A stretch of DNA of 64,000 nt from Collinsella tanakaei (GTDB lineage: Bacteria > Actinomycetota > Coriobacteriia > Coriobacteriales > Coriobacteriaceae): the NCBI RefSeq assembly GCF_016902615.1, contig NZ_JACJMB010000003.1:1-64000 (forward strand). The letters run 5' to 3'. The translations under genes and the position numbers were made by a program. The notes below the pieces were generated by a model, which searched no databases, was not told where the DNA came from, and worked only from the letters and a program-made list of their open reading frames with translations. This document shows positions 42,991 to 63,033 of the stretch, in pieces (the stretch's first letter is position 1; every line of letters starts with the position of its first letter).

Positions 42991-43034
42991 GACCCGTCCG
43001 GCTGCCGCCGTCCGCACAGCAAGGAGTATCCCGC

Positions 43035-43469: not shown

Positions 43470-43491
43470 GCGCATCTATCCCGGTTGCGCG

Positions 43492-43542
43492 GACCGCGCC
43501 GGAGCACCCCGTCCCGATAGCGCGGGGTGCTCCGGCGCGGTC
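43492..43542. terminator. 20-bp perfect inverted repeat at the suf/BREX junction
   Basis: Arms 43492-43511 and 43523-43542 are perfectly complementary across an 11-base loop. It lies where the suf operon and the BREX operon converge and probably ends both transcripts; no T-run is present. Confidence 0.65.
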
Positions 43543-43661
43543 GGGACGGTTCGAGGTGGAAACCGCGGACTCCCAATCGGGCTTAATCGGCGTTTCCCTA
43601 GCGGTACAAATTGCGGCTGTCTCGATGTACCGGGTCGCCCATCTATCGGGATGGGCACCGC

Positions 43662-45764
43662 TCACGCAAGCCTACGATATGTGATCTCGAACTGCTTCAC
43701 GCGACGCCTCTCGGGCATAAGTGCTTCGAGAGAGAATGCGTTCCCGCCGTCGAACTTCTGCCAGATGTCGAGTCCGCGATCAAGCTGGATGTCCCAACGG
43801 TCATCCACGTAGACATGGCGCGCATGGAGCGTGCCCGTCGCGTCCAGCTCCCATGTGAATTCGATTCCCACGGGGGCCACCGCATCGGCGACCTGCTGAA
43901 GATAGCCGACCTGTTTTTGGACGCCCCGCTCATCGGGACAGGTCACAAGATGCACCTCGACTTTAGGTATCGCATCGCCGCGATGCCTCAGCACGACCTC
44001 GACGAACTCCATGACGTTGCGGCACTGATGAAACGCGCGCACATACGGATCAACGATGAGCACACATCGCGCTCCTTCAAGGTAGGGGCCGAACAGAGCT
44101 TCAAACGACGCACCGCGCTGATTCTCGCGATACGCCTTGAATCCCTCGAACAGTTCAGCCGCCGGCTCCCCACCGTGGCGCGCAGCGGCATCACCAGCTT
44201 GGTCCCCAGAAGCGTCACGGGGCGCCGCGCCGTCCACCCGTAGCGGAGCCTGCGCCGCCTCGGCCGAAACCGACCCGGCATCCACCAGATCGCGCACATG
44301 ATAGGTCGACGGATACTCCGCCTCCTCAAGCGTCCGCACCGCGCGCACCTCGCCGGTCGCCTTATCGGTGTAGGAGAACTCCACGCGCTCAAACGTGCCG
44401 TCGATGCGATACAGCTGGTCCTTCACGCGCTCGCGCATCTCCATGGCGATCTCGAGCAGCTCGCGCGCCTGCTCCTTGTCCATATCCTTGCTGGGGAACA
44501 GGATCTTCGCTAACCCGCTGAACGTCTTGTTCACGCCGTCGCGGTCGCGCGTCGAGATGCTCTCGGACACCGAGAACCACCGCTCGTAGAGCCCCGAATA
44601 GTCGAGTGCGCGCAAGGCCCGCAACGCCTCGGCCAGGTAGTCCACGATGAGGCCGAACCCGTTGCTGAACATATCCCCCCGGATGATGGACATCTCCCAG
44701 CCCGGCACATAGGCATGGATGCGGTCGATGAACGCGGGGTCGTGGTAGAGCGCCGGCAGGTCGTCGAAGAGGTCGGCGTTCTGGATGAGGTAGCCCACGT
44801 CATGGCTCGTGTTGCCGATGAACGCCATGGATGCCTCCGCCGTCACCTGCTCGATGCCGCGCGAGAAGCTCTTGTTGGCCATATAGTTCTTCATGATGTC
44901 CACGACATCAGGCTTGGGGCGCTTGTTCTTGCCGGCGAACTCGTCGAACGCCACCGCGTCCCAGTAGCCGACCAGCCCGATCTTGCCCGTCGAGTTGTTC
45001 ACGAAAAGCTTGGCCGGCGTCACCTCTCCGCCCGAGATGAGGATGCCGTGCGGCGAGAACTCGCTGAACACGTGGCTTTTACCCGTGCCCTTGGGCCCGA
45101 GCTCAACATAGTTGTAATTGCGCTCGCAATAGTTCACGAGACGCGTGAGCAGATAGAACTTCTCGCGGCGGCCGAGCTGTGCCGGCTCGAGTCCCACCGT
45201 GCGCACGATGACGTCCGTCCACTCGTCCATGGTGAACGCCGCACGCGCTTGCACGTGCTCATCTATATCGAACCCGGCCATCTGGATGGGCTTGAGCGCC
45301 TGCAGCAGAAACGGCGATTCGTCCTTGGCCTCGTTGGCGCTGTAGGTGAGGTCCGCGATGCACCATACGCCCGAGACGAGCAGGCGGCGATTGGCCTTCA
45401 CCACGTCGGAGCTGACGAGCACGCGCGCGATGCCCAGATTCTCAAAAGCGGCCTCGTAGGCATCGCGTTTAAGATTGAGCTCCACCGAAACCTTGTCAAT
45501 CACCCGCTTGTAGCCAGACTGCTTGATGTCCGACCGCACGGCCCCCGCCTCGGCGCGCTGCACGTAATGCTTGGCAAGGATGTCCTTGACGCGCTCGACA
45601 CCCGTCTCGATCTCCGCCTCATCGTCGGTGGCGCAGTTCTGTCCCAGCAGAAATTCCAGCACGTAGCTCGGCACGGCGGCGTTGCCGCGCACGCGCTTCA
45701 CCAAGTCCTTGCGCACCGCGTATCCGGGAAAGGCCTCGTTTATCTTTCGATCAAGATCGTCCAT
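43662..45764 (-). CDS. brxL: BREX protein BrxL with MIT_C-like C-terminal domain
   Basis: The last gene of the BREX operon, 700 residues. Residues 1-470 are BrxL-like: an N-terminal helical region, Walker A LGPKGTGKSHVF (about 221-232), Walker B AVAFDEFAG and MAFIGNT. A linker of about 70 residues rich in Ala, Gly and Asp follows. The final 155 residues (FGPYLEGARCVLIVDPYVRAFHQCRNVMEFVE, HLVTCPDERG, LHARHVYVDDRWDIQLDRGLDIW) look like a MIT_C/phospholipase-D-like fold rather than the Lon-type protease domain of longer BrxL proteins. The start is 9 bases after pglZ. N-terminal assignment firm; C-terminal one moderate. Confidence 0.85.
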   Translation of the reverse strand: MDDLDRKINEAFPGYAVRKDLVKRVRGNAAVPSYVLEFLLGQNCATDDEAEIETGVERVKDILAKHYVQRAEAGAVRSDIKQSGYKRVIDKVSVELNLKRDAYEAAFENLGIARVLVSSDVVKANRRLLVSGVWCIADLTYSANEAKDESPFLLQALKPIQMAGFDIDEHVQARAAFTMDEWTDVIVRTVGLEPAQLGRREKFYLLTRLVNYCERNYNYVELGPKGTGKSHVFSEFSPHGILISGGEVTPAKLFVNNSTGKIGLVGYWDAVAFDEFAGKNKRPKPDVVDIMKNYMANKSFSRGIEQVTAEASMAFIGNTSHDVGYLIQNADLFDDLPALYHDPAFIDRIHAYVPGWEMSIIRGDMFSNGFGLIVDYLAEALRALRALDYSGLYERWFSVSESISTRDRDGVNKTFSGLAKILFPSKDMDKEQARELLEIAMEMRERVKDQLYRIDGTFERVEFSYTDKATGEVRAVRTLEEAEYPSTYHVRDLVDAGSVSAEAAQAPLRVDGAAPRDASGDQAGDAAARHGGEPAAELFEGFKAYRENQRGASFEALFGPYLEGARCVLIVDPYVRAFHQCRNVMEFVEVVLRHRGDAIPKVEVHLVTCPDERGVQKQVGYLQQVADAVAPVGIEFTWELDATGTLHARHVYVDDRWDIQLDRGLDIWQKFDGGNAFSLEALMPERRRVKQFEITYRRLA

Positions 45765-45773
45765 GTCACACCC

Positions 45774-48305
45774 TTAGAAGTCCATGCCGAAGTTGCGGCG
45801 CACCTTGAACGTGCGCTCGTCGGCCGTCTCGTAATGCGTCGTGCGCTTGATGCGCCGTTCGGTTCGCAGCGTCAGCTCCTCTCCGTTGAGCACGTTGCTG
45901 CCGACGGCGATCGTGACCGCGAAATGCCGCTCAAGCTCCGATACCGAGGCGCTCGCAAGCTCGAGGTTCACCAGCTCGGAGACGCGCGTCCCATCCTTGC
46001 GATAGAGCGCCGTCCGAATATGGGCGGGCAGAGCATCCTCCCCTACCGGCTCGCTTTGGTAGACCTCGAAGGAGAGCACCGCACCCGTGATGGTCTTGTG
46101 CCCGCCCGTGAGCACGTCGAAGCCCACGGTATGCTGACGACCGGCCTTGCCCTTGACGGGAGCGACCTCGATGCAGGGCACCACCGTCTCCTGCAAGGTC
46201 ATGCCGCCATGCACGTAGCGGGCGCCCGACCCTTGGAGCTTCAGGCGGCGCGTCCCCTTGGGGACGGCCACCTCGAAGTCGCCGGCAAGTCCCAAATCCT
46301 GTGCGGAAAAGCGCATGAGGTCGGCATGCTGGGGAAGCTCGGCTCCCATCAGATACCGGCGCGCGTGCTTCGCGGAGCCCGCCGACACGATGGTCGGCAG
46401 CAGCGGGAAGTCGACCAGGTCGAAGAAGGCGGAATCGTCTTGATACAAAAAGCCGTGATCCGCCGTCACGAACACCCGCGAAAAGCCGTCGCGCAGCAGC
46501 TTGGCGACGATGCGGTCGAGCTCCTTAAACGCATCCTCCACCGCCTCGAAAGCACGCCGCTCGGTGGTCCGGTCGTCACCCACCGCATCGATGCGGTCAT
46601 GGAACACATACAGCAGCGGAATGCCCGCAAGGTCCTCGCGCGGCTGCGCCAACAGCTCGTCTGCGGCCATCGCCCTGGCACCGGGCACGGCGGCATCAAG
46701 CAGCTTCTCGCGATTCGCCGTTCCGACCGTGGGCTGCCCGTCGGATGAGACGTTATGCGTTGCCGGATCGATGGACAGCGCGCCATGCGGAAGCAGTGCC
46801 GCCATGCCCAGCTGCGTGTACGAGGGCAGCGCTGCTAACAGGGCGGACACGACGATGCGGCATCTGGATCGCAGCTCGGTGCGCTCCGCCCAGGAAGCAC
46901 CGACCTCGAACCGCAGCGCATCGGAGACGACCACGGCCGCTCTGCCGGGAGCGATGTGCGGATAGCGCTGGTAGAAGTCCGCCTGGAAGGGAAGCTCATC
47001 GCTCGGCGGCCACCGCACGGCATCCGCAACCGCGCGCTGCCATGACACGGCCAGTTCGTTGACCACATGGGCATAAGCCACCTCGGCAGGCCGGTACAGC
47101 GCCTCGATGCCGGAGAACCCGAGGTCCTGGATGCTGTCCTTGAGGCGTACGAGCACGCGATACGAGGTATCGTAGCGGAAAAGCTCCTCCGTATAGCGCG
47201 CGAACAGGGCGTCCGCACCGTCTGCTCCCGCGATCTCGGCGAGGACACGCTGCTCGCCGGCAAGCAGCTCATCGGCCGCGCGCAGCGCATCGTAGGCAGG
47301 AAGCCACGAGCGCGCGATCACCATCGGGGCGCGCCGCACGCGGATGTTGTCGATGCGCTCGACGATGTCGATACGCTGCGCAACGTCCGCCGTCAGGCGC
47401 CTGAGCAGCTCGGTATCCGCATGCGGCAGATACGAATGCTCGGTGAGCACCTCAAGGGGCAGCGTCTCCCATGAGCACTGGGTGGCCACGCCGTCGCCCG
47501 TCTTGTCGAGAAGGCCGAGGTAGACGCTCCCCTTCCGTGCATCGTTTTCCATCTCGCTCAGCAGCACGTTGGCATCGGGCGTGAGGACGGGCTCGGCCCC
47601 GGTCACATCGGCGCAAGCGGAAAGCATGCATGTGAACGCGAAGTCCTCGACACTCGGGTCATCGCTGGCGTAGCCGAAACCGTCACGGAGCGCCTGCCAG
47701 AGGGCATCACTCAGTCCGAAACGCGCTATGCTCCTCCATACCGTGTCGACGCTTTCGGCATACTGCTCAAGCAGCCGACGGGCGATGGCACGGTTGGCAT
47801 CCACGCGATGCGCGCTCTTCGACCCGCAGCACACCGCGAGCATCGCGAACTCCACGACCTCGAGAGCATCATCGCCACCATCCAACCAATCCGTCGCGGC
47901 CATAAGGTCCTTCAGGCCGCTTCGCCGGTCTTTTGCGTTGAAGAACTCGGCATGGCGGGCGAGTCCCTCGGTGCATGAGAGCGGAATCCCCAGCTCCTCC
48001 GCCCAGGAAGCCGCCTGTGTGGCGGCAAAGGGCTTAGCGAACGCCTTGATGTCGGCAAGGAAATCCTCATCGAGTTCCGGCGCCCCGCCTGCGCGGTACA
48101 CCAAGAAGCGCGCGTCGGCATCGTCACGCAGGATACGGCGCTTGAGCGCCATCTCGTTACCCTGCGCAACTGCAACCGTCACACCCGGAAGCTCAAATCC
48201 GGCTATGTCCTCAGCAAACTCCCCCGCTGTGTCCTCCCAGAAGACCACACGTACCTGTGCGCACGCATCGGCGAGCTTCGCGGTAATGTTCTCATCGAGT
48301 GCCAT
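45774..48305 (-). CDS. pglZ: BREX phosphatase-domain protein PglZ
   Basis: The core BREX protein of the alkaline-phosphatase superfamily, 843 residues. VVVSDALRFEVGASWAERTELRS and VFVTADHGFLYQDDSAF contain the metal-binding Asp and His expected of the fold; ELPQHADLMRFSAQDLGLAGDFEVAVPKGTRRLKLQGSGARYVHGG follows. PglZ and PglX are both needed for phage exclusion. It is separated from the upstream AlbA_2 gene by 3 bases and from brxL by 9, so the three form one transcript. Confidence 0.93.
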   Translation of the reverse strand: MALDENITAKLADACAQVRVVFWEDTAGEFAEDIAGFELPGVTVAVAQGNEMALKRRILRDDADARFLVYRAGGAPELDEDFLADIKAFAKPFAATQAASWAEELGIPLSCTEGLARHAEFFNAKDRRSGLKDLMAATDWLDGGDDALEVVEFAMLAVCCGSKSAHRVDANRAIARRLLEQYAESVDTVWRSIARFGLSDALWQALRDGFGYASDDPSVEDFAFTCMLSACADVTGAEPVLTPDANVLLSEMENDARKGSVYLGLLDKTGDGVATQCSWETLPLEVLTEHSYLPHADTELLRRLTADVAQRIDIVERIDNIRVRRAPMVIARSWLPAYDALRAADELLAGEQRVLAEIAGADGADALFARYTEELFRYDTSYRVLVRLKDSIQDLGFSGIEALYRPAEVAYAHVVNELAVSWQRAVADAVRWPPSDELPFQADFYQRYPHIAPGRAAVVVSDALRFEVGASWAERTELRSRCRIVVSALLAALPSYTQLGMAALLPHGALSIDPATHNVSSDGQPTVGTANREKLLDAAVPGARAMAADELLAQPREDLAGIPLLYVFHDRIDAVGDDRTTERRAFEAVEDAFKELDRIVAKLLRDGFSRVFVTADHGFLYQDDSAFFDLVDFPLLPTIVSAGSAKHARRYLMGAELPQHADLMRFSAQDLGLAGDFEVAVPKGTRRLKLQGSGARYVHGGMTLQETVVPCIEVAPVKGKAGRQHTVGFDVLTGGHKTITGAVLSFEVYQSEPVGEDALPAHIRTALYRKDGTRVSELVNLELASASVSELERHFAVTIAVGSNVLNGEELTLRTERRIKRTTHYETADERTFKVRRNFGMDF

Positions 48306-48308
48306 GGG

Positions 48309-49937
48309 TCAGTCCTTATCGTTAAGCCTGTAGCGGGTTGATCGGCTTGTCCCCGTCCGAACGATAATGCCCTCGGCAACCATCTGGGACAGGATTTCCC
48401 TTGTTCGAGAAAGGCCAAGACCAAGCTCGTCTGCCAGCGAAGCTATCGGCAGTGAACGCCCACTGGAGAGACACTGGACAACATGCTGCTTAGTTATTGC
48501 CGATTGCCGCCGTTTTTCATGTATAGCCGCCGGTTCTTCATCAATTTGTCGCCGGTTGAAGCTGGTTGCCGCCGGTTTATCGTCGATTGAGGCCGTTTGC
48601 CGCCGGTTATAGGGATTTGTCGCCGGTTCATCACCGATTGCCACCGGTTCTTCGCCGGTCTCCGCCGGTCGGCGCTCGCCCGTCTCCCGCTTTCCGTTCA
48701 TGGCAAGCGACAGACCACCCGTCGCGAGCGGCAACGCGAGCGTAACGCGGTCGGGGTCAAGGGACTCTGTGAGGGTCGGAGCACCAACGCCCGCCCATTC
48801 TGCAGATCGCCGCAGCACGTCGAAGCCGCTCCCCGCCTTATCGCCCATACCGATAAGGTTGAACATGGTGAGCATCGTGAGGTTGCGCGGATCGGACACG
48901 CCGCCGCCCTCGATCACATCGAGCGGCAGACGCAGCGTGCCGGGGTTCGTAAGCTCGATGCCCTTCGAGGTGCGCAGCGCCACGAGCCCGGTGCGACCGT
49001 AATAGTCCGCGTGGACAAGCATGTTGGTCAGTGCCTCGCGCACCGCTTTATGCTGCGGCGTGTCGTCGATGCGCGTCATACCAGGCCCCAACTCAAAAGG
49101 AACCGGCAAGCCCTCGCTCAGCATGGGGTACGCCTTGTACCAGAAATCGAAGACGTTACCGCTCCACTCACCGCTTGCCGAGGTAACGCGGTTATCCCAT
49201 CGACGGTGCGAGAACTCCTGACGACAGTCGAGGAAAAACTGTGGGAACTCCTCGACGATGCGCCATGCGTGGCCGAACATGAGAAGCCCTGCCCGCGTGG
49301 GATGGAGCCTCCCGTCTTCCCGTGAGCGCCCGACAGCCCCCAGGCGAACGAGCAGCTCCTCGTTGTCAAGGTCGCGCCACGGATGGTCGGGGCGTTCCGC
49401 GCGCAATGCATTCCGGTACCGCTGCACGGTATCCATGCAGAACGCATCCAGCCCGAGCTCGGGCAGCACCAACCGATCCGTAGCCCCCTCGGCGCTGTCG
49501 CGTATGAGGGATCGCACCGTCTCGGGTGTACAGCGATAATCGCCCTCGCCGTTACGGCGAAAGGTTCCCGTGTTGGGATTGTTGTTGATGTAGACCGGGC
49601 GGAGCGTGCGATCGGCACGCGGCACGCGCACGACAACGATGGGCGAACCGTCGAACTCTTCGATAGACACATCGCCATCAAGCAAGAGATTCGCGCTCAC
49701 GCGTAGCGGATTGTTGAGCGCGTTCCAGAGGTCTTGCACCAACGTGTCGGGGCTCGCGATGCCGGAGGGATGCGGACTGCCATCTGCAGCCTCCATCACA
49801 CCGAGTACGATAACCCCGCCGTTGGTGTTAGCGAACGCTGAATAGGTCTCCCAGAAGCTGCGCGGCAACCCACCGCGCGCGTCCTTGAACTCAAGGCGGT
49901 TGTCCTCGCGATAGCCTAATAGCGATTTACGATCCAT
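48309..49937 (-). CDS. AlbA_2/Schlafen-like ATPase with repeat linker
   Basis: 542 residues. The N-terminus (YREDNRLEFKDARGGLPRSFWETYSAFANTNGGVIVLGV) is an AlbA_2 (Schlafen-like) nucleic-acid-binding domain. The middle (REALTNMLVHADYYGRTGLVALRTSKGIELTNPG, VSDPRNLTMLTMFNLIG) is the GHKL-like ATPase half common in this family. Residues about 425-480 form a degenerate repeat linker (units such as PATNPYNRRQ, PAATSFNRRQ). The C-terminus is a winged helix (LPIASLADELGLGLSRTREILSQMV). It lies between the Shedu and pglZ genes. Such genes often ride in BREX operons; role unknown. Confidence 0.85.
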   Translation of the reverse strand: MDRKSLLGYREDNRLEFKDARGGLPRSFWETYSAFANTNGGVIVLGVMEAADGSPHPSGIASPDTLVQDLWNALNNPLRVSANLLLDGDVSIEEFDGSPIVVVRVPRADRTLRPVYINNNPNTGTFRRNGEGDYRCTPETVRSLIRDSAEGATDRLVLPELGLDAFCMDTVQRYRNALRAERPDHPWRDLDNEELLVRLGAVGRSREDGRLHPTRAGLLMFGHAWRIVEEFPQFFLDCRQEFSHRRWDNRVTSASGEWSGNVFDFWYKAYPMLSEGLPVPFELGPGMTRIDDTPQHKAVREALTNMLVHADYYGRTGLVALRTSKGIELTNPGTLRLPLDVIEGGGVSDPRNLTMLTMFNLIGMGDKAGSGFDVLRRSAEWAGVGAPTLTESLDPDRVTLALPLATGGLSLAMNGKRETGERRPAETGEEPVAIGDEPATNPYNRRQTASIDDKPAATSFNRRQIDEEPAAIHEKRRQSAITKQHVVQCLSSGRSLPIASLADELGLGLSRTREILSQMVAEGIIVRTGTSRSTRYRLNDKD

Positions 49938-49952
49938 GGGGGCAAATCCTAT

Positions 49953-51002
49953 CTAAAATGGAATCTCATCATCGGTTTCGTCTTGATAGCTTACGACACT
50001 GAGAAGTTGCTCACACTGAGCCAGTAGGTTGTCATAGGTCATAATTTGAATACCGTTAAGCCGGCTGTTTAATCCATGAAGCGCTTTGCGCTTTTCCTCA
50101 TCCCAAATATGTGATCGGCCAATAACTACTATAGCCCTAGGACAATAGGAAACTATCTCGCTGTGATCACGTAAACCGCCTGACGCCTCTTCAGAAAGAA
50201 CGTCTAGATAACGATGACACTGGCCAATGACTTTGGATACCTCCGCTGAAAAGTAATAGTCTCTATGAGAGTCGTCAAAGTGAAGAACCTCAAACTTTGG
50301 ACTTTTTAGCTCGACAATGTCTCGATAGCCGCTCATAAGGCGAGGTAACAGCATGTCAACTGAGTCACTTGTCGAAATGTTTCTTACCTTATCCCGAACA
50401 ATATACGCGCTACCAAATGCCCAAGAATTATTGAAGCACCACTCTTGATAGAAAGATTCACTTATTTCACCAGAATCCAATAAGCCTCTGAGAACAGAAA
50501 TGGCACTACGCATTTCCGCCAAATGGATAGATGTTTTAATTGCTGAAACAAATTCATTCGTCAACTCAACAGCTCTTAAATGCTCGACTATTATTTTATC
50601 TTCCAAAGCCGCAATCAACGCTTTGGCAACAAGCTCTGGGGAAAGGTCGCTGTAGTCAACCGTGCCATCAGATAGTCTCACGACGAGATAATCGCCTGCG
50701 TCTTCATTGCGCAGCTTAAGACCGCTCCCGATTAATTTGGAGAGCTTTTCACAGGACTCGTGATCGAGACTTATCGATTTTTCGTCAACTGGAATCGGAT
50801 ATGCAGAGTTCGGACTTTTTCGATAAGTGGTTATCTTACATGACAGCTCATCCGGACCAGTGTTATGTGGAATGTAGAAAAGGACAGCTTCAACTCGAGT
50901 CTTGCTATTGTCCTTTAGAACAGCCGTCTCGCTGTGGTCAACTTTGGGATTGTAAAGCGACGCCTTCCTTGAGGTAACTGTAAAGTCATCGTTATGAGCC
51001 AT
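49953..51002 (-). CDS. Shedu-type (DUF4263) anti-phage nuclease
   Basis: 349 residues, clearly more AT-rich than its neighbours. The C-terminal part carries SVDMLLPRLMSGYRDIVELKSPK (Asp216, Glu231, Lys233) and VIGQCHRYLD (Gln261), the D...ExK...Q pattern of the Shedu SduA PD-(D/E)XK domain. Residues 1-150 are a beta-rich region without a recognised family. It lies 8 bases after pglX and 15 bases before the AlbA_2 gene, so it is part of the BREX transcript. Single-gene Shedu systems cleave DNA in phage defence. Whether it depends on BREX is unknown. Confidence 0.82.
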   Translation of the reverse strand: MAHNDDFTVTSRKASLYNPKVDHSETAVLKDNSKTRVEAVLFYIPHNTGPDELSCKITTYRKSPNSAYPIPVDEKSISLDHESCEKLSKLIGSGLKLRNEDAGDYLVVRLSDGTVDYSDLSPELVAKALIAALEDKIIVEHLRAVELTNEFVSAIKTSIHLAEMRSAISVLRGLLDSGEISESFYQEWCFNNSWAFGSAYIVRDKVRNISTSDSVDMLLPRLMSGYRDIVELKSPKFEVLHFDDSHRDYYFSAEVSKVIGQCHRYLDVLSEEASGGLRDHSEIVSYCPRAIVVIGRSHIWDEEKRKALHGLNSRLNGIQIMTYDNLLAQCEQLLSVVSYQDETDDEIPF

Positions 51003-51010
51003 ATACCCTC

Positions 51011-54000
51011 CTAGCTCAATCCCTGAACCTTAGCGAGCGCACGGCCGAACTTCTTGTAGTTGACCTTGACGCCATCGTCGAGATCGATCTCCACGTGCTG
51101 CTGCGAAAGCGGATAGAGCACGTCGCGCTCCCATTGCTCTACCTCGGCGACCATCTGGCGGTAGCGGTTGGCCTTTGAGGCGTCACGCGCGTTGCCGGTG
51201 GCCACGAGCTCGGCCGCACGAGTGGCAAGCCCCGTGCGGAAGGGGCGCACGTACTCGGTGAGCACAACGGACACCGTATCGCGCGTCATGCGGTGCATGT
51301 AAACGAGCGCCTGGAAGCTGCCCTTGGGGCTCGCGAACAGCCAGTAGATGGGCCGCTTTCCGGAACCCGTCACCTGGTAGGTAGCGCAATGATCCTTGTA
51401 GAGATCCTTGGCGAAGTAGGTGCGCAGGTCCATACCGAGCGCATTCTCGATGAAGGAGATATTGTCGTCGAGCGTATCGGGGCCATAGGTGTCTGCAAGC
51501 CATGCGCGGAACACGCGCGCCGCATCGTCGGCAAAGCTGAAATCCTCGACGTTCGTGATGGGCAGCACATTGGTCTCGGCGGGCATGAAGGAGGCCTCGG
51601 GCACCTTGGCCGTGAAGTCGTCGACCGTCTGCTGCGCATCGGCAAGCACGAGGCCGGGCGCAGAGGTTGAGTATCGCCCGAATATGCAGCCCACGCCATA
51701 GGAGATGAGCGATTTGACGTCGCGCACGAGATCCGCCCGACGGACGGACACTTTGTCATCCGGCACCTCGATGGGCACCTCGCCCTCCATGCCGTAGATG
51801 CACGCGAAGATGCGATTCAGCTCTTCCTCGTTGGCTTTGAGCTGACTAAAGCGCTCGTCGCACTCTTGCTGCCAACGGGAGAATTGGTTCTTGATGAGGG
51901 GTTCGCCCGGCTGTGTGAGAGGGTGGGTCGAGAAGTCCCACGAGGTTTCGAAGGAGTCCCAGTCGATACGAGAGAGATTTATACATTCCTCAGTCAACCC
52001 GATAGATCTTTCTTGCTGAAATACAGCATCAAGAACAGGAATTGAGCATGCCTGACCTACCCCGTAGTGCAATGTAGGGGACAAAATCGAAAGTGCTTCC
52101 CGAATCACCGTCGAGTTCAACAATCCCAGTAGCGACAGTTGTTTGTCACCGGTAACAGGAATTGCATTGGCGCAGTGTTCGATAATCATTCCTATACCCC
52201 GGTACCTAAAGGACGGAGTGCCAGAAGAAACATCGGACCAGGCAATGTACGGCTTGAAGTAAATATCAGGATTCCTTATGACAGAGTTTTGAAAGCCATT
52301 GAGCTCCTTGCCATCGTTCTGCCAGTTAATCAGATAGAGAAGGTTGCCGTACCATTTTCTAAACTGCCCGCCTTTATCGCATGGAAACCACTTGGCGCAT
52401 GACGAAGATGCATCATCCCTTGATTTAATATTGAAATCCATTGTTGAGAGCATAGGCTCCCACCACATTCTCATAAAACGATTGTTGTCAGCAGTAGCAA
52501 GCCCCTGCCTTGGCGCCGCAATCGCCTCCAAAGGGCTCCCCAAAGAAAATGCCCTCAACAAATCATAACTCGCCCAATACGCAATCGGACTGCCGGGGAT
52601 GACGTCGAACTCGCCCTGATCAGCGCGGTAACGCCAGGGGCAGTCGGGGTTCTTGATGGCCTTAGACAACGCTGCGGCCTTCTCATCCCCGCCGACCACA
52701 TCAACAAGTCGCACGTAGGCTCCTTGACCCTCGTAGTGCGCATTCCAAAACGCGGCAGCGCTCACTTGCACGACCTCGCCAGCAATCTGATCGAACGCAT
52801 GCGCACCGAGATGCGCCATCGTGAGGATGCCCTTGTTCTGAATAAGCCAGGTGCGCATCTTCTCGTACCCACCGAGGAACATCCACGAGTGCATGGTGAC
52901 CATGGCGCTGTACCCGCGCGCGCACGTCAGCGTGAATCCCCGCCGGATAAAGCACGTGCACAGATCGTTCTTCTCATCCGGATAGTTCTCACGGGCCCAT
53001 TTCGCCATGAAGGGGTTGAACTTGCCCGATCCCAGATACGGCGGGTTGGCGACTACACAGGTATAGGGGCCGGTAAGCGCATCGAGCGCCGCGCGCATGC
53101 GCGCGAGCTTGTCGATGGTTGTGCCGGCAAACATGCCCTCGGCTTGGGTCAGGTTGTCGATGGCGATGTCCACCAGCTCTTTATCACCAGAATCGGGCAC
53201 GTAGAGACTACCGATCTCATCCAGATGCGCAAACGCTTCGAGCAGACGCGTATTGCCCACGATGAGCCCCGCTTCATCCAGCTCACCCTCATCGAAGCGC
53301 ACGGGTTCCAGCACCGCAATATGCGCGTCCACGCCCTTCTCGAAGAAGCGCGGATCCTTCTCGCGGGCGCACATCTCCAACGCAAAGCAGGCGATTTCCG
53401 CTGCGCGACGGTCGATCTCCATGCCGAAGAGGTTGTGCTCCAAAATGAGCTGGGGGATCTCCTCCGGCAGATACCCCTCTTCCTCGTAGATGGCGTAAAG
53501 CAGCTCAAACGCGTAGACCAAGATGTGCCCGCTGCCGCAGGCCGGGTCGCAAAGCGTCAGCTCCTCGGGGCCGTCCACCTTGAGAAAGCCCTCGGTATCC
53601 TCGGGATCGGGCGCGATGCAATACTCCATGCGCTCCGCGAGCGCACTCCCGGGGTTGTTGAGCATCCAGAGGCGGCCGAGCGAGTTCTCCACGAGGTAGC
53701 GCACGATCCAGCGAGGCGTGAAGAGCTGCGTCGCCGCCGGGATGTCCTCGGCAGCGGCCTTGCGCTTGCTGCCGTAGAACTCGTCGTGCTGCTCGGCGAT
53801 ATAGAACTGGTAGAGCCAGCCCAAAACCTCGACGGACTGGCAGGTCTCCGCATCCATGCCCTGGGTGATGCGCTCAAGCACCGAACCCTCGTTGAGAAGG
53901 CCGGCCGGCGCGAGGAGACGCATGGCATGGCGAAGCCCCACGTCGCCACCAAAAAGGTAGCCCATGGGAACGGCGTACTCATCGCACGCGGCGAGAAGCA

Positions 54001-54424
54001 GTATGAGATAGGCTTCGCCCAGAGGATCGCGCGCAGCGCGGCCTCCATCCAGCAATTCCGACACCTGGTGTCGCTGACCCTCGCTCAGGCGAAGCCCCTC
54101 GGTGAAAAGCCCCCGCCGCGCATCGGCCAACACGGCGGGAAGAGTCTCCCCCGCTCGCGCCGTGACGATGCCCACGGGCGTGTAGCCGCGCTCGTCCATG
54201 AAACGCAGGGCGCACAGGCGGTTGAACCAGGTATAGGCCACCCGCTCCACGAGCACTTCGTGCCCAAGACGGCCGGCAAGCGCCTCGACACGCGCCACCA
54301 CCGTGGGCTCGGATAGGCGCGCCGGACTCTCGGAACGCAACACGCGGTCGAGCGAATCCCCCACCTCTTTGACGAGGGCCGTGCGCACGCCCTGCGCGAG
54401 CTTCTGGATGCGGTTGGAATCCAT
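51011..54424 (-). CDS. pglX: BREX adenine-specific DNA methyltransferase PglX
   Basis: Methylates the host BREX motif so that self DNA is spared. The 1137 residues contain LCDPACGSGHILVYAFELLY (SAM site, about residue 292) and the catalytic NPPY in VVANPPYLGSGKFNPF (about 459-462). Residues about 620-830, the expected target-recognition region, are encoded by much more AT-rich DNA (about 51950-52560) than the rest. The ATG at 54424 follows AAAGGTC. It lies between abi and the Shedu gene. The recognition site cannot be predicted. Confidence 0.95.
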   Translation of the reverse strand: MDSNRIQKLAQGVRTALVKEVGDSLDRVLRSESPARLSEPTVVARVEALAGRLGHEVLVERVAYTWFNRLCALRFMDERGYTPVGIVTARAGETLPAVLADARRGLFTEGLRLSEGQRHQVSELLDGGRAARDPLGEAYLILLLAACDEYAVPMGYLFGGDVGLRHAMRLLAPAGLLNEGSVLERITQGMDAETCQSVEVLGWLYQFYIAEQHDEFYGSKRKAAAEDIPAATQLFTPRWIVRYLVENSLGRLWMLNNPGSALAERMEYCIAPDPEDTEGFLKVDGPEELTLCDPACGSGHILVYAFELLYAIYEEEGYLPEEIPQLILEHNLFGMEIDRRAAEIACFALEMCAREKDPRFFEKGVDAHIAVLEPVRFDEGELDEAGLIVGNTRLLEAFAHLDEIGSLYVPDSGDKELVDIAIDNLTQAEGMFAGTTIDKLARMRAALDALTGPYTCVVANPPYLGSGKFNPFMAKWARENYPDEKNDLCTCFIRRGFTLTCARGYSAMVTMHSWMFLGGYEKMRTWLIQNKGILTMAHLGAHAFDQIAGEVVQVSAAAFWNAHYEGQGAYVRLVDVVGGDEKAAALSKAIKNPDCPWRYRADQGEFDVIPGSPIAYWASYDLLRAFSLGSPLEAIAAPRQGLATADNNRFMRMWWEPMLSTMDFNIKSRDDASSSCAKWFPCDKGGQFRKWYGNLLYLINWQNDGKELNGFQNSVIRNPDIYFKPYIAWSDVSSGTPSFRYRGIGMIIEHCANAIPVTGDKQLSLLGLLNSTVIREALSILSPTLHYGVGQACSIPVLDAVFQQERSIGLTEECINLSRIDWDSFETSWDFSTHPLTQPGEPLIKNQFSRWQQECDERFSQLKANEEELNRIFACIYGMEGEVPIEVPDDKVSVRRADLVRDVKSLISYGVGCIFGRYSTSAPGLVLADAQQTVDDFTAKVPEASFMPAETNVLPITNVEDFSFADDAARVFRAWLADTYGPDTLDDNISFIENALGMDLRTYFAKDLYKDHCATYQVTGSGKRPIYWLFASPKGSFQALVYMHRMTRDTVSVVLTEYVRPFRTGLATRAAELVATGNARDASKANRYRQMVAEVEQWERDVLYPLSQQHVEIDLDDGVKVNYKKFGRALAKVQGLS

Positions 54425-54478
54425 GCCATGCGACCTTTCTCTTACTCTATCGCCAGTACGAGATGCTGGACCACGCCT

Positions 54479-55486
54479 TCACGAGGCACCCATGAGGACG
54501 TCTTTCCAATCGGAAGGGAACCCCATGGGGTTCAGCGAAACATCCGGGTGGTGCCCGATGATACCTGCCAAGCGCTCAACCAGCTCAGGCCACTGGTCCG
54601 ACCATGACCGTTCATACATCCGCTTGAGCACCATAAACGTAGGGAACTCCTTGCTGCCGCTATACTGCACATCGCGCCGGAGCAGCTTTGGCCTGATGCG
54701 CATGATTCGGTTATAGAAACGATTGTGATGCCCGCAGATGTTTCGGATGCTGCACAAATGGTGCATCCAGCTCTTTACATTACGCGGACTCAAGCCAAAC
54801 GAATCAGCAATTTCTCTCCTTGCTTCTGCAGCAGCAGAATCCACCTCCTCGTCGTGCTGAAGGTTCCCAAACAGATTCGAAACAAGTCCCATGCTCATTA
54901 TTTCAACGGCAGCCCAAACGGGAAGCTCTCCGTACTTTGTAAGGTTGTGCAGAACGCAGGGTTCCCCAGCTTGCCTGGCCCTGTTGAGTTCTCGCCAAAA
55001 GTTATCCATAGACTTGGAGTGATCTGCCTCGTTCGCAAAGTGCCCAGCATCGAGATAGGCAACTGGTCCGCATTCCTTGGCGAAGCAATAGGCAAACTGC
55101 GTCCTAAACTTCAACTCAATCGGTTCTATTGCATTCCAAAGCCATGACCTCACATCGCGGTCAAGGCAATAGATGTCCCAAATATCTTGAAAGGTTGTGC
55201 CCGGGGCAACGACATCATCGTGCTCGAACGTCATCCAGTAGGCTCGCAGCCGATAATAGTTGAGATTCCTGAGACATTGCGCGGCAAACGCAGGATCTTC
55301 AACGCGTATTCCATGGCTGTTCAAGCGTTCGAGTTGCTCATCTATAGTCAGAAAAGGCTTCATCGAGACAAAAAAGGACCCAGCCTGGTTCGCTGCATCG
55401 CTGCGCGCGTGCTGGGTACTATCGTTTGATAGTTTACCCGCATTCGCCTTCTCGTTGCAAGCGGAATTCTTGCCCTCGGAAACCAT
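54479..55486 (-). CDS. Abi_2 family (AbiD/AbiF-type) abortive infection protein
   Basis: An abortive-infection protein of about 335 residues. KPFLTIDEQLERLNSHGI, LRNLNYYRLRAYW and FRTQFAYCFAKECGPVAYLD are Abi_2 (PF07751) blocks. IRNICGHHNRFYNR supplies the HEPN R-x4-H ribonuclease motif. I chose the ATG at 55486 (GAGG 8 bases upstream); a GTG at 55495 is an alternative. It lies 15 bases after brxC and 54 bases before pglX, so it is carried inside the BREX operon. Confidence 0.85.
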   Translation of the reverse strand: MVSEGKNSACNEKANAGKLSNDSTQHARSDAANQAGSFFVSMKPFLTIDEQLERLNSHGIRVEDPAFAAQCLRNLNYYRLRAYWMTFEHDDVVAPGTTFQDIWDIYCLDRDVRSWLWNAIEPIELKFRTQFAYCFAKECGPVAYLDAGHFANEADHSKSMDNFWRELNRARQAGEPCVLHNLTKYGELPVWAAVEIMSMGLVSNLFGNLQHDEEVDSAAAEARREIADSFGLSPRNVKSWMHHLCSIRNICGHHNRFYNRIMRIRPKLLRRDVQYSGSKEFPTFMVLKRMYERSWSDQWPELVERLAGIIGHHPDVSLNPMGFPSDWKDVLMGAS

Positions 55487-55501
55487 GTCTGCCACCTCGC
55501 C

Positions 55502-58500
55502 CTACAGGATGATCTTCTCGTTGCGGTCGATGCGCTCCATCAGGTCCACACGGAGCGCATCAATGAACGCATCGACCTCTTCCTGCGTAGAGAGACTGCC
55601 GTTCTTGTAACGCGCAGGGATGCTGACCTGCTGGTACGGAACCGTCTTGACCGGCGGCTTCGGAGACACGGGGACGTCGGGGTCATCATTCGGTGCAGGC
55701 TCCGGCTTGGGCTCGACGAGCGAGTACAGCCGCGATGCCTCACGGTTCTTGAAATCCTGCACCAATCCGCGCACGACGGCAATCTGGTTTTGAGCATCGA
55801 TGCTCTGCGCGCAGGCAGCAATGATGCTGTCGACCTGGTGCTTCACTTCATCCGTTGCCGCACGATACGCATCACCCAGGCGGAACTTGAGCGAGAAGTC
55901 GTCCAGATCGCGGTGCGCATCGCTGCGGGCTCCGGCAAGCGCCTCGTCTATCTGGGCGCTCATGTTCTTGACCAGGCTGTTGGCCTTCGGAGCGGAGCTG
56001 TAGGTGTAGCAATCTTCATCCGCAAGAAGCGCTCGGAGCTTGGCCTGATCGTCGTTTGCCCCTGGCACAGCAGCGATGTTGGCGGCCTGCTCCATGAGAA
56101 AGCGACTAGCTCTTGCAAAGATCTGCCCGGGCTTGCCGTTGGCGAACGCCTGCATCCTGCCCAGGTCCTCCAGGGTCTTCGCCATATCATCGATGACCGT
56201 CTCGATGTTCTCAATGAACCACGCACAACCCTTGTCGGCCCATACGCGGAGCTCGGACACCGCGTCGCGGCAGAGCTTCTCAAACGGAAGCCCCTCTATG
56301 TGCTCGGGCACGACCGCGCGCTGCCTCAGCTGGTCTGCGAGGGCGTCGGCGAGCTCCCGGGGATCAGTGGAGACGGGATCCATACCGGTGACGCGATGAT
56401 AGGCCGCGCGAAGCGCTTCGACCTTTTCCGGCGAGGTCGCTGTGACCGGCTTGACCCGGATGCTGTCAAGCTGCTTGCCCGTCGAGAGCGCTGCCGCCAA
56501 ATCGGGGCCCTCAAGAGGTTCATCGCCTCGCGTGCACTCCACGAGGTTATTGAGCGCCAAGATGCCGACGGCCTGGCGCACGGACTCGACAGGCCAGCCA
56601 TGGTCACCCGTGCGGAAGCGCGCCTCGAGAGCGTTGTCGGTCGTCCCGCCCACGATGCAGTGGGCTGATGTGGCTTGTACGCGCCTGATGTCTTCCAGCA
56701 CCTCGCGGCAATACTCGGCAAGCGGCTCGCCCGGCAACAGCTTGGTGCCGGTCGACGCGTCGTAGACGGTCTTGCCGCTGAACGCCATGTCGAGCATGCG
56801 CAGGTGGGGGTAGGACGCCTTGACCATCTGGAGCGCCGCGCACTCGAAGCGGTCCTTACCTTGACCGGTAAGCTCGTCGGTCACATCGCGCATGGCCGTA
56901 CCGTAGAGCGCGCGATCGAGCTGGTCGGTGAGCATGGCGATCAGCTCGCGGCGACGCTGCTCGTTGGTGGTTCCCTTCTCCTTGATAATATTCTTCTTGC
57001 GGCCTTCGTTCTGGTGGTTCAGGCTCACGTAGCTCACCGTCTGCCTCCAGAGGCGCGCCTCCTGTGTGAGGCGCGTATTGCGCGGAAGCGCCACATGGAG
57101 CTGCTTGACTTGCGCGAACTTGAAGTTCTCATCGGCCCCCGGTGTGAGGTCGGTGAACACGTTTACTTTGAGCTCGCTGCGCCGCGCGCCGATGGCCTGG
57201 CCGTCAACCAGCAAATCGTAGGAAAACGTTGTGGAGAAATCGCCGTTAGCGTAACGCACCTTTGTCTGACCGATGACCTCCTGGAGCATCTTACCGATCT
57301 CCTTGGACACCTCGGAATCCGAAACCGCCTCGCGCTTGATTTCCTCCTCCACGTCCTTCTCGTCATCGGTCAGGTATTCGTATGCGTCACCGTTGCGACG
57401 AATATAGGTCTGTGCATCCAGTTCCTGGCAAACTTCAACAACCTGCTCCTCGAGTTCCGCCTGGTTCTCAGAGAAGCTGCTATAGAGAAGCACGGCAAGG
57501 TTTTTGGGTGTCGCCCTGAAGCCGTTGCAGTATTTCACCAAAAGCAGCGCCTTGAGCACCCGGACACCCAGCCTATGAGGGAAATGCTCCTCAGCTTGGC
57601 TGATGGCGTTGAAGACCTCGCTTTTGAGCTCGTCGCGCAAGCCCTCGAACATCGCGTCGAAGGGAATGAGGTCACCCTTGTCCACCTCGCCTACGTCCTT
57701 GCGCGCGACGAGCACTCGGTGCGTCGTGCCCAACATATTGCGCGCGCCGGTGGAGACGTATTCGCCGGTAAAGGCCGCATGCTCGGAAAGGCCCGTCAGG
57801 GCCTCATGGAACAGGTCGAACTGGTAGCCCACCAAAGGGTAGGTCGATGTAAAGTCCTCGCGGTCCGCATAGGCCCGGTAGTGCTTGGCGCCGTCGGGAA
57901 AATCGAGCAGGACCTTAAAGTCACCCGAATAGGCGTCGTACAGGCGATCGAGCGCCGGCAGCGCGTCGTCGCTTTTGGCCAGCAGACGCTCGCGCACCAC
58001 GGTGTTGGCGTCGTTGGAGGGAATCTTCATGAGCACGGTGAAGCGCGCCTGGATCTTTGAGAACTGCCCGGCGGCGTTTTGCTCCAGCCGCCCGGTGATA
58101 TCGGCCATCTCCTCCTGGGAGACCACCACGAGCCACGCCCTGCGGCCGCAGCGCGTGTTGAGGTTCTCGACGATATCTTGCAGCATCTGCAGAAGCGGAA
58201 CGCTGTCGGCGATGTACTGGCCCATCTCGTCCACGAAGAAGTTCAGACGAAAGCCGGGCTCGTCCTGTTCGCGCTTCTCGATGTATTCCAGGCACCATTG
58301 GGCGAAGTCCTCCGGCGTGGGGTGATAGCTGTCGAGGTAGTACTTGAAGATGTTGGGACTGGTGCCCTCGGCGTTGCCGCAGACCCGGTCGTATACCGCG
58401 CTCACCTTGCCAGCGAAGATGGCCGGGTTCTTGCGAACCGTCTCCCATGAGCGCCCCATGGACCGCTGGATCTCGTCCTTGAAGCTCTCATAGAGCCCCG

Positions 58501-59017
58501 CGCGATCGAGGTCGCGCTCGAGCGCCGCCACATGGGCCTGCTCGCCCGCAAAGTAGCCGCATTGCTCGTTGAGGACCTTGATGAAGGCGTTAAGCAGACT
58601 CTCGCCCGTGTCGCGGCGCTGCGCATCCGACTTGCCGCCCACGTTGAAGAGGATCGATTCGCTTGGCGTGCGCGCGCAGGCCCGCTCGAGGGCGGAGGCA
58701 AGCATGGCATCGTTTTGAATCTTCGGGAGAATGAAGTCGAGCGCGCTCTTGTCGCCGACGGTCTGGTTCTCCAGCAGATAAGAGAGCATCTTGAGCAGGT
58801 GCGACTTGCCCGAGCCGTAAAAGCCCGAGATCCATGCACCGTTACCGGCGGCGCGCGGGTTGTTGTACTCGTCACAGAAGCGCGTGAGGAAGCGCCTCAC
58901 CTCGGGCGTGAGCACATACTCCTCGAGCTCATCCGCCACGTAGCGGCCGTCGTCGGACTTGATGACGGAGTCCATGTGCCGGTCGATGTCCCTGGCGAAG
59001 ATATCTTTGAACTTCAT
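55502..59017 (-). CDS. brxC: BREX P-loop ATPase BrxC
   Basis: A large AAA-type ATPase of 1171 residues, an essential core BREX protein. Walker A is GFYGSGKS (65-72) in GNGAWISGFYGSGKSHLLKML. LNFFVDEMGQYIADS is the Walker B region, followed by WLVVVSQEEM. The remainder is mostly helical. The start at 59017 has AAGGG upstream, 12 bases after brxB. Confidence 0.94.
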   Translation of the reverse strand: MKFKDIFARDIDRHMDSVIKSDDGRYVADELEEYVLTPEVRRFLTRFCDEYNNPRAAGNGAWISGFYGSGKSHLLKMLSYLLENQTVGDKSALDFILPKIQNDAMLASALERACARTPSESILFNVGGKSDAQRRDTGESLLNAFIKVLNEQCGYFAGEQAHVAALERDLDRAGLYESFKDEIQRSMGRSWETVRKNPAIFAGKVSAVYDRVCGNAEGTSPNIFKYYLDSYHPTPEDFAQWCLEYIEKREQDEPGFRLNFFVDEMGQYIADSVPLLQMLQDIVENLNTRCGRRAWLVVVSQEEMADITGRLEQNAAGQFSKIQARFTVLMKIPSNDANTVVRERLLAKSDDALPALDRLYDAYSGDFKVLLDFPDGAKHYRAYADREDFTSTYPLVGYQFDLFHEALTGLSEHAAFTGEYVSTGARNMLGTTHRVLVARKDVGEVDKGDLIPFDAMFEGLRDELKSEVFNAISQAEEHFPHRLGVRVLKALLLVKYCNGFRATPKNLAVLLYSSFSENQAELEEQVVEVCQELDAQTYIRRNGDAYEYLTDDEKDVEEEIKREAVSDSEVSKEIGKMLQEVIGQTKVRYANGDFSTTFSYDLLVDGQAIGARRSELKVNVFTDLTPGADENFKFAQVKQLHVALPRNTRLTQEARLWRQTVSYVSLNHQNEGRKKNIIKEKGTTNEQRRRELIAMLTDQLDRALYGTAMRDVTDELTGQGKDRFECAALQMVKASYPHLRMLDMAFSGKTVYDASTGTKLLPGEPLAEYCREVLEDIRRVQATSAHCIVGGTTDNALEARFRTGDHGWPVESVRQAVGILALNNLVECTRGDEPLEGPDLAAALSTGKQLDSIRVKPVTATSPEKVEALRAAYHRVTGMDPVSTDPRELADALADQLRQRAVVPEHIEGLPFEKLCRDAVSELRVWADKGCAWFIENIETVIDDMAKTLEDLGRMQAFANGKPGQIFARASRFLMEQAANIAAVPGANDDQAKLRALLADEDCYTYSSAPKANSLVKNMSAQIDEALAGARSDAHRDLDDFSLKFRLGDAYRAATDEVKHQVDSIIAACAQSIDAQNQIAVVRGLVQDFKNREASRLYSLVEPKPEPAPNDDPDVPVSPKPPVKTVPYQQVSIPARYKNGSLSTQEEVDAFIDALRVDLMERIDRNEKIIL

Positions 59018-59029
59018 GCGTCAGCCCTT

Positions 59030-59623
59030 CTAGAAGTCGAAGATGTTGCGTGCGCGGTACTTGCCGCCGCCCGTGCCGGCGGGCGTGGTGAGGACGTCGA
59101 GCGTGCGCTTGCCGTTGGGAAGCGTGGTCTGCCGCCCGGGGAACATCACCACCACGGGCACACCGGGGTTCAGCAGCTCCACCAGGCGGTGCGCGCGGAT
59201 GATGGGATGGCATGCCCCCATACCGGTAACGATGAGCAGCTCCGCCCGTGCGCTCCGCACCGCCTCGTGCATGCGCGGAACGAACACGTTCTCGATGTCA
59301 ACGGCGTCACGGAGCGCATTGATGAACTCGGCTGGCGGCATGTCCCGCTGCGCCTCGGCATAGGGTTCCCAGATCTCGTCCTCGTCCATGATTTGGAGAA
59401 AGAGGTCATAGGCGTTGACCACGCACGCGATGTGCCCGCGGGTGGCGAGGTCATGTACGAGGGCAGCGACCATCTGCTCGCATTCGGGCTGCTGGGCCGG
59501 ATCATAGGGCGCAACGAAGCAGGAGGAGTTGGAGAAGTCGTCAGCGCTCTGCAGGAAGCGGGTGCTGGAAAGCGTGTCCGCCAGGTAGGGCTCGCCCTGC
59601 GTGATGTGGTCGAAGGTGAACAC
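59030..59623 (-). CDS. brxB: BREX protein BrxB (DUF1788)
   Basis: 197 residues starting at a GTG (59623), two bases after brxA. The sequence (VFTFDHITQGEPYLADT, VVNAYDLFLQIMDEDEIWE, ELLIVTGMGACHPIIRAHRLVELL, VVVMFPG) fits DUF1788/BrxB, a small core BREX protein of unclear biochemical role. Tight spacing implies translational coupling. Confidence 0.9.
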   Translation of the reverse strand: MFTFDHITQGEPYLADTLSSTRFLQSADDFSNSSCFVAPYDPAQQPECEQMVAALVHDLATRGHIACVVNAYDLFLQIMDEDEIWEPYAEAQRDMPPAEFINALRDAVDIENVFVPRMHEAVRSARAELLIVTGMGACHPIIRAHRLVELLNPGVPVVVMFPGRQTTLPNGKRTLDVLTTPAGTGGGKYRARNIFDF

Positions 59624-59625
59624 GG

Positions 59626-60210
59626 CTATCTCACCGCCGTAGGGAAGAGCGCGAGGTCGTCATCCGAGAGCAGGGCGGCCACGTCCGAGGGGATGAGATA
59701 CGGAAGCAACGAGCCGCCTTGCGAGAGGAAGCCCATCGTCCGCAGCATGGTGAAGAGCTGCGAGCGCAGGCGCGCAGCAGTCTGCTCCTTGAGTTGTGAG
59801 AGCTCGGGGTGGAGAGCGGCCTGCTCCGTCACGAACGCCTCGTATACGCCATCGTTGAGGGTCGTCACACCGTCGTGCCAGCGCTCCCTGACGACCTCCG
59901 TCGTAAACGATGCAATGAACGGATACGTGCGACAGATGGCGAGCCAGATGACCGCATCCGCCGACGCAGACGCGGGGACGTTCGCGAGAAACGCACACTC
60001 CGCAGGCGCGAGGTTCTTGAGGCGGCGAATAAGCTCGCCTGCCACCCGGCGGCGCGAAGACACTTGTCGAATCATGAGGAGGTCGTCATCAACCGCCTGC
60101 CGGCGCACCTCGTCCCAGTCGCCCAAACGGGAAAAAGCCTGAGCAAGGGCCACGGTCTCGTCTCTCCTGAGCCCTGCGGCGGTATAGGAAAGCGGATAGA
60201 TCTTAGACAT
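59626..60210 (-). CDS. brxA: BREX protein BrxA (DUF1819)
   Basis: 194 residues from the ATG at 60210 (MSKIYPLSYTAAGLRRDET; AGGAT upstream). DUF1819/BrxA proteins are small, helical, and can bind DNA. Blocks include RRVAGELIRRLKNLAPAECAFLA and TYPFIASFTTEVVRERW. The start overlaps the end of the upstream RHH gene by 8 bases. A longer reading from 60276 is unlikely. Confidence 0.9.
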   Translation of the reverse strand: MSKIYPLSYTAAGLRRDETVALAQAFSRLGDWDEVRRQAVDDDLLMIRQVSSRRRVAGELIRRLKNLAPAECAFLANVPASASADAVIWLAICRTYPFIASFTTEVVRERWHDGVTTLNDGVYEAFVTEQAALHPELSQLKEQTAARLRSQLFTMLRTMGFLSQGGSLLPYLIPSDVAALLSDDDLALFPTAVR

Positions 60211-60427
60211 GATCAGCATCCTGTTCACAGTTCGAATCGTGCTTGCCGGCTTGGAGGCGCACCACGTCATCGGCAATGAGCGCCGAAATGTAGGCCGAAA
60301 GGCTCATGCAGCGCTCCTCCGCCATGGCGGTGGCGGCATGTTTGAGCTCAGGCGAGGCAGCGAAGATGATTCGTTCGCTCTTCCTGCCGTTGAGAAGGGC
60401 CATCCGCAAGCTGCGATTGTCTGCCAT
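60203..60427 (-). CDS. Small ribbon-helix-helix-like protein at the head of the BREX operon
   Basis: 74 residues (MADNRSLRMALLNGRKSERIIF...). KSERIIFAASPELKHAATAMAEERCMSLSAYISALIADDV has the strand-helix-helix pattern of a ribbon-helix-helix DNA-binding domain. Its stop overlaps brxA by 8 bases. Many BREX loci have a WYL-type BrxR regulator at this place; none is seen, so this may be the autoregulator. It could instead be an antitoxin or mobilisation-type protein. Confidence 0.6.
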   Translation of the reverse strand: MADNRSLRMALLNGRKSERIIFAASPELKHAATAMAEERCMSLSAYISALIADDVVRLQAGKHDSNCEQDADHV

Positions 60428-60861
60428 GGGCGCTCCCGTCGACGCTTGTATAAAAGTTATATAAATAGAGTATATCGATGCTCCGCTTGATTTAACAGTC
60501 CACCCCCGAAATACTGAATCGAGGGAGAACCGCGAAAGCCGAACGAAGCCGTCCTCCTGAAGGGCAACTCCGCACGCTCGCCCGTGTGATATGCTCCGGG
60601 CTCGCCTGGAAACGTGCTCGGCAGTGCGCTTTTGATAGATGCGGGCGACAAACCCGCTGTCTATGCGCCGCCCTATGGAGCATCCCCTCATATACCAAGC
60701 GCTGGAACCGAGAGGGGCGTCCGGTGCCGAGGGGGGGCGGCTGGCGACAACGTGGGCCGCAGTCGCCTCGCTATTCATTCTGTAGGCTCGCTGTACTACA
60801 TGGCGCGAAAACCGGCTTGCGGCTACACTGCTTTGGAGACATCGAATCAACGGGAGGCCGC
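60428..60861. other. Divergent intergenic region at the right end of the BREX island
   Basis: 434 bases between the BREX operon and the flippase-like gene. Apart from the AT-rich promoter block I see no gene, tRNA or attachment-site repeat that would explain how the island arrived. Confidence 0.4.
60441..60480 (-). promoter_or_regulatory. AT-rich promoter/operator of the BREX operon
   Basis: A run of TATA-type motifs (TATACT, TATATAAC, TATACA on the minus strand) lies directly before the RHH gene and contrasts with GC-rich flanks. It probably holds the -10 element and binding sites for the RHH protein. The exact -35 is unclear. Confidence 0.45.
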
Positions 60862-62618: not shown

Positions 62619-62864
62619 GATGCACCTCCCGGTTCCTGTTGTCGGGATTATACCCGGGATTCCGCGTGCGCCCCATCCTCGTGCGTCCCCATCCACTCCA
62701 AGCCAAGCGACTGACACCAGGACTTTGAACCCGGACGATAACCCCTGATGCGCTACACACGGACGAACTGTAGAGCGTCAGTCTCACGACACCGCCCCAA
62801 ACGCCACCAACCGTCAGCGCAGGCGTTCTGACAGAAGGTATTCGCAAGAACAACCGCATCCGAG

Positions 62865-63033
62865 AACGTGAAGGTGCCACTTTCGGTACTTTTTCAGAAC
62901 CCTCCTGAGTAGACTTAGAAAACGGCCAAAACGATATAACCTTCTACCTGCAGGTTTGTTCTTTCAGCCTCAGCCAGATACGCCGTCTTCACCGAACGGC
63001 TCGAAAAAGTACTGAACGTGGCACCTTCTCGTT
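62865..63033. repeat. MITE-like element with 31-bp terminal inverted repeats
   Basis: The left arm (62865-62895) and the reverse complement of the right arm (63003-63033) agree at 28 of 31 positions; the inner 25 bases agree at 23. About 107 bases lie between. No transposase is encoded. It could be a small non-autonomous element or a dispersed regulatory repeat. Confidence 0.6.

Follow-up and report, generated by a model that had tools for sequence, protein, structure and literature searches.

Does a BREX operon that carries additional defense genes encode one integrated machine, a BREX system with back-ups, or neighbors that share a promoter? A locus of Collinsella tanakaei raises this question (NCBI RefSeq assembly GCF_016902615.1, genome size 2.45 Mb), and we analyzed it within a window of 64,000 nucleotides covering positions 1 to 64,000 of contig NZ_JACJMB010000003.1. 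BREX systems methylate host sites and block unmethylated phage DNA, and their PglZ component is a nuclease. Type I systems are recognized by methylation of a 6-base non-palindromic site together with phage restriction. The additional genes belong to families with activities of their own: Shedu cuts DNA, and HEPN and Schlafen proteins are RNases tied to abortive infection. The locus comprises ten genes, given here in operon order.

60203..60427, minus strand: RHH/Arc-like protein of 74 aa, encoded at the head of the operon (from its translation and from homologues 5' of brxA elsewhere)
59626..60210, minus strand: brxA (PF08849, E 4.9e-32; PADLOC BrxA, 1.1e-48)
59030..59623, minus strand: brxB (PF08747, 1.1e-18; PADLOC, 2.5e-33)
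55502..59017, minus strand: brxC ATPase (PADLOC BrxC, 1031 bits over 1-1171; Walker A GFYGSGKS intact)
54479..55495, minus strand: Abi_2/AbiD-type HEPN gene at the brxC/pglX junction (PF07751, 1.9e-44; PADLOC AbiD, 7e-76)
51011..54424, minus strand: pglX (brxX) N6-adenine methyltransferase (PADLOC PglX, 1185 bits; CDPACGSG and NPPY intact)
49953..51002, minus strand: Shedu (SduA) nuclease at the pglX/pglZ junction (SduA_C, 1.1e-14; PADLOC SduA, 1.5e-126)
48309..49937, minus strand: Schlafen-family protein at the pglX/pglZ junction (PF04326, SLFN_AlbA_2, 2.1e-11; PF13749, HATPase_c_4, 2.6e-6)
45774..48305, minus strand: pglZ nuclease/phosphatase-fold effector (PF08665, 6.2e-40; PADLOC, 564 bits; SDALRFE and TADHGF intact)
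43662..45764, minus strand: brxL (PF20442, PF13337 and PF16565; PADLOC, 1031 bits)

Membership in type I BREX follows from the presence of all six core genes in one cluster, in which the methyltransferase, PglZ and both ATPases keep their motifs; at these family scores chance matches are not an issue. BrxL combines an N-terminal domain, an ATPase and a C-terminal phospholipase-D-like domain (MIT_C, PF16565), and its Walker A and C-terminal H-x-R motifs are conserved across 126 aligned BrxLs. The ten-gene order and coordinates given in the initial annotation were confirmed by the translations and by the Pfam and PADLOC matches, as was its claim that three defense-type genes lie within a type I BREX. 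That BREX is complete, and the three genes are all intact at their signature motifs. Divergence of pglX peaks at residues 421-480 and 721-840 (26-30% identity versus 68% at 241-360), as would be expected for target-recognition regions. GC content dips to 0.52 at 52001-53000, within this gene.

All ten genes form a compact run on the minus strand from 60427 to 43662. Translation of brxA begins at the ATG at 60210, inside the 3' end of the RHH gene, which gives an 8-base overlap; the other spacings, whose values are affected by start choice, are 2 (brxA-brxB), 12 (brxB-brxC), 6 (brxC-abi), 54 (abi-pglX), 8 (pglX-Shedu), 15 (Shedu-Schlafen), 3 (Schlafen-pglZ) and 9 bases (pglZ-brxL). The range of 3 to 54 bases or overlaps reported earlier thus holds for the overlap and the upper value, but the smallest gap is 2 bases. 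Neither promoter-like sites (3 versus 4.7 expected from shuffled sequence) nor terminator-like sites (8 versus 12.8) are in excess inside the operon, and internal promoters and terminators were rejected since the pattern counts there do not rise above chance. In the intergenic DNA 5' of the RHH gene, a TATACT/TATATAAC-rich segment, read by eye and unscored, is a candidate promoter. Co-transcription of the whole run is likely, judging from this layout. The locus is flanked by chromosomal genes of housekeeping type, SufBD and a class V aminotransferase at 40463-42990 and an LPG-synthase-like membrane protein and a GGGtGRT protein at 60586-63918; no integrase match was found among the seven flanking ORFs scanned.

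The protein encoded by the opening gene matches no Pfam family itself, and two of its homologues are weakly NikA-like. Homologues lie directly 5' of brxA in L118, L120 and L141, three BREX operons of other Coriobacteriales that represent different families, and a weak candidate was seen in L139 (E 0.13); the underlying HMM was built from four sequences (the window, L118, L120 and L141), which makes its scores partly circular. This recurrent position supports the RHH assignment, and the protein is probably an autoregulator of the operon. The BREX regulator cited in the text of a 2026 BREX survey is the WYL protein BrxR, and the term RHH is absent from that text (PMC12839542). The RHH protein may represent an alternative BREX autoregulator.

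What, then, are the three additional genes? The Abi_2 protein carries the R-X4-H motif as RNICGH, which makes it a member of its family, and its nearest solved structure is PDB 8vz6, an 'Abi family protein' (E 6e-24). Across 43000-61300, Rfam returned nothing beyond chance level, and the junction fold is unremarkable (z 0.10). An AbiF-type RNA-antitoxin system in the operon was rejected, as Rfam revealed no neighboring known non-coding RNA. In the Shedu protein, D216, E231-x-K233 and Q261 are invariant across 7 Shedus and are the residues expected for a PD-(D/E)XK site; a sequence search returned no relatives with solved structures. The third protein combines an AlbA_2/Schlafen nuclease-like domain, with E11, E16 and K18 conserved, and a GHKL-type ATPase domain. 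Schlafen-family protein is a better name for it than its earlier label, 'AlbA_2 ATPase'. Residues 484-541 match several HTH families, all below the curated Pfam cut-offs, and the C-terminal end is probably a wHTH.

These genes differ in composition from one another and from the core. GC3 is 0.74-0.86 in the BREX genes, and the Schlafen gene (0.71) comes near to this range, whereas abi is intermediate (0.60) and Shedu (0.417, with an overall GC of 0.436) is foreign in composition. Because GC3 differs between genes in this way, we infer that the operon would be a patchwork in which Shedu is the latest arrival.

Each of the three families has relatives outside BREX, which counts against a BREX-specific role of the extras. 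Abi_2 is present in 208 of 387 Coriobacteriales genomes, so a BREX-specific Abi_2 subfamily is unlikely, and AlbA_2 is found in 267 of the 387. A supported tree of 24 Schlafens indicates that they entered BREX separately at least twice. The window copy pairs with one located beside brxL in another Coriobacteriales genome (L138), and both neighbor BREX-free copies from the window's own genus, one of them 46% identical to the window copy; a plasmid relative is located inside a type I R-M operon. The Schlafen was rejected as a BREX-specific subfamily on the strength of these separate entries and same-genus relatives. Shedu is rarer: it occurs in 14 of the 387 genomes, and in 2 of those 14 it lies in or adjoins a BREX operon. 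A rough estimate (48/387 x 20 kb/2.4 Mb) gives a chance of ~0.1% per gene and of ~1 in 10,000 for two BREX-linked Shedus, a probability that general defense-gene clustering would raise. A BREX-free relative of the window Shedu, a Streptomyces fragment, shares 56% identity with it. Short-Shedu copies of genomes G546 and G431 sit at contig ends. In one such place (L165, G431 contig 3, 740-1876 and 2680-3564), at a contig end of a genome without detected BrxL, a Shedu of the window subtype (46% identical) lies ~0.8 kb from an Abi_2-like gene scoring 61 bits to the window abi by phmmer, which suggests that Shedu and Abi may pair outside BREX too.

Among the 387 genomes of the order, 48 encode BrxL, and we annotated 49 stretches around these genes. 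The closest BrxLs to that of the window are 65-71% identical and come from Atopobiaceae and other Coriobacteriales, whereas BREX systems of the same genus have PglZ proteins only ~30% identical to the window PglZ; the window BREX was therefore probably acquired horizontally, as far as protein similarity can tell. The exact gene arrangement found in the window was seen neither in the loci examined from the 48 BrxL-bearing genomes nor in the portions examined of 80 BREX loci spanning many phyla, a large share of the compared loci being incomplete at the brxC end. A conserved exact arrangement was rejected on this basis. In three systems with the window type of BrxL (L113, L116, L139), the core genes abut directly with no extra gene between them. 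In others with this BrxL type, the pglX/pglZ junction holds Gabija (L145, same DNA as L032; GajA E 4e-136, GajB 5e-182) or the pglZ/brxL junction holds a PDC-S28 helicase (L144). A Schlafen occupies pglX/pglZ in L118, a BREX from the same genus that belongs to a different subtype. An Atopobiaceae-family system (genome G589; L141 and L162) resembles that of the window in its BrxL type, its RHH-brxA start and its Shedu subtype (49% identical), but it has Shedu directly 3' of brxL, AbiH and an AbiLi-like ATPase as inserts, and pglZ before pglX. Since the same junctions hold differing modules, or none, in relatives, BREX junctions are, on this comparative evidence, exchangeable slots for defense modules.

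Other features of these relatives were also seen. The gene order brxC-pglZ-pglX-brxL, unlike that of the window, occurs in L120, L135, L139 and L141, and L120 contains a tandem pair of pglX genes. In another BREX subtype of the order (L117, L119, L123, L134, L147, L152, L153, L157 and others), a long pglX is accompanied by a distinct, short pglX-like gene; the two are separated by unclassified genes over a distance that varies from 0.8 to 5 kb, a second insertion hotspot.

The same pattern extends to the 80 BrxL loci, which are mostly from other phyla. Shedu is at the pglX/pglZ junction in L035, L040 and L045, and Schlafens are found in at least six of the 80, at brxC/pglX, at pglX/pglZ or between two pglX genes. 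The arrangement nearest to that of the window belongs to Desulfobulbaceae UBA2273 (L035; brxC-Schlafen-pglX-Shedu-pglZ-brxL), which shares two of the three extra classes and has Shedu at the identical junction. There, however, the Schlafen occupies brxC/pglX instead and belongs to a different subfamily, the Shedu is only 18% identical, and no Abi_2 was seen within the part of the locus examined. Among 91 junction proteins, 25 match the AriA model and 22 the AbiLi model, many of these matches reflecting shared ABC/OLD ATPase domains, and there are repeated matches to GmrSD, Schlafen, SduA and Fic-like families. By comparison, in a length-matched set of 91 proteins encoded downstream of brxL, at distances above 1 kb, the commonest defense model accounts for 4 of 91. 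Internal BREX junctions are thus strongly enriched in defense genes relative to downstream flanks, in a comparison of leading families rather than totals. The initial annotation had considered that the extra genes might vary randomly and be unlinked to BREX. Half of this holds, in that content varies from operon to operon and copies occur far from BREX, but the enrichment of the junctions contradicts the other half. Read from their distribution, the extras are general modules that have been repeatedly recruited.

Several precedents bear on the novelty of this operon. The main text of a recent survey describes, from at least 4363 taxa, auxiliary and backup nuclease effectors that lie in or beside BREX and related loci. 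Among them are Shedu-type nucleases, stand-alone HEPN domains and Schlafens with a histidine-kinase-like domain and a wHTH, the last in at least 1017 taxa; many of these effectors are encoded in the operon itself, and the survey already offers the back-up interpretation (Rakesh & Krishnan, NAR 2026, PMC12839542). Those systems share with the window the presence, within BREX operons, of Shedu-type PD-(D/E)XK nucleases, HEPN RNases and Schlafen-HATPase proteins with a wHTH, which is probable in the window copy, and the BrxL described there likewise ends in a phospholipase-D-like domain. The window extras lie within the core locus and on the same strand, as expected of BREX backup effectors; the combination of AbiD, Shedu and Schlafen is not described in its main text. 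HEPN genes of the Abi2/AbiF/AbiD families are likewise embedded in R-M operons, where they were proposed to act as a suicidal second line (Anantharaman 2013, PMC3710099); that work concerns R-M and Pgl contexts generally, and ours this one BREX operon. The type I BREX region of pEFER/pBrxXL also carries an extra nuclease, the embedded BrxU, and complementary protection was shown experimentally (Picton 2021, PMC8565348). BrxU differs from the window extras in belonging to the GmrSD type IV enzymes and in having been tested at the bench. Because both the idea and the protein classes inside BREX had been published (PMC12839542), and HEPN genes with R-M systems before that (PMC3710099), novelty is far below what the initial annotation implied.

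We consider it probable that this complete type I BREX has taken up three generic anti-phage genes at its junctions, as co-expressed plug-in layers or back-ups. A single promoter 5' of the RHH gene would drive all genes and would probably be autoregulated. BREX would mark host sites, and PglX, BrxC, BrxB and PglZ would stop unmethylated phage DNA. Shedu might form a separate DNA-cleaving layer in parallel to BREX, and AbiD and the Schlafen could serve as RNA-cleaving, growth-arresting back-ups once a phage evades or inhibits BREX. The extras would then be strain-variable plug-in modules and not fixed BREX subunits. Layered defense with an abortive back-up is plausible from this gene content.

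Alternatively, the extras might share with BREX only its promoter and its travels, each acting alone and against different phages. This account is credible, if on balance unlikely. It is favored by the wide occurrence of all three families without BREX, by the unrelated modules that occupy the same junctions in different relatives, and by BREX and BrxU on pEFER, which act as two independent layers (PMC8565348). The enrichment of defense genes in junctions over flanks hints at a benefit of being inside the operon, although this is a weak counterargument that co-expression alone could explain. At the other extreme, the extras could form a coordinated, BREX-triggered cascade under one RHH-controlled promoter, in which a Shedu DNA cut is followed by an RNA-cleaving shut-down through AbiD and the Schlafen. 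We regard such a cascade as improbable; if it were true, phage inhibition of BREX would itself trigger suicide.

It is highly improbable that Shedu, AbiD and the Schlafen are physically part of the BREX complex or directly triggered by it. The tight spacing within the operon and the presence of Shedu at the pglX/pglZ junction in four operons from three phyla would fit such integration, but close relatives (L113, L116, L139) have a complete BREX without extras, Shedu is located after brxL instead in L141 and L162, its GC3 of 0.417 is foreign to the operon, and Schlafens entered BREX at least twice. There is just as slim a prospect that the extras are newly captured, non-functional passengers. 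The base composition, foreign in Shedu and partly so in abi, would fit this reading, but every frame is open, active-site residues are conserved, and the genes are fitted between their neighbors without disruption.

Knowledge of BREX itself is unchanged by the window operon. The operon is an unusually clear natural case of exchangeable BREX slots, with three effectors in one operon and other inserts or none in relatives, and it is well suited to asking whether embedded effectors serve as genuine back-ups or are mere fellow travelers.
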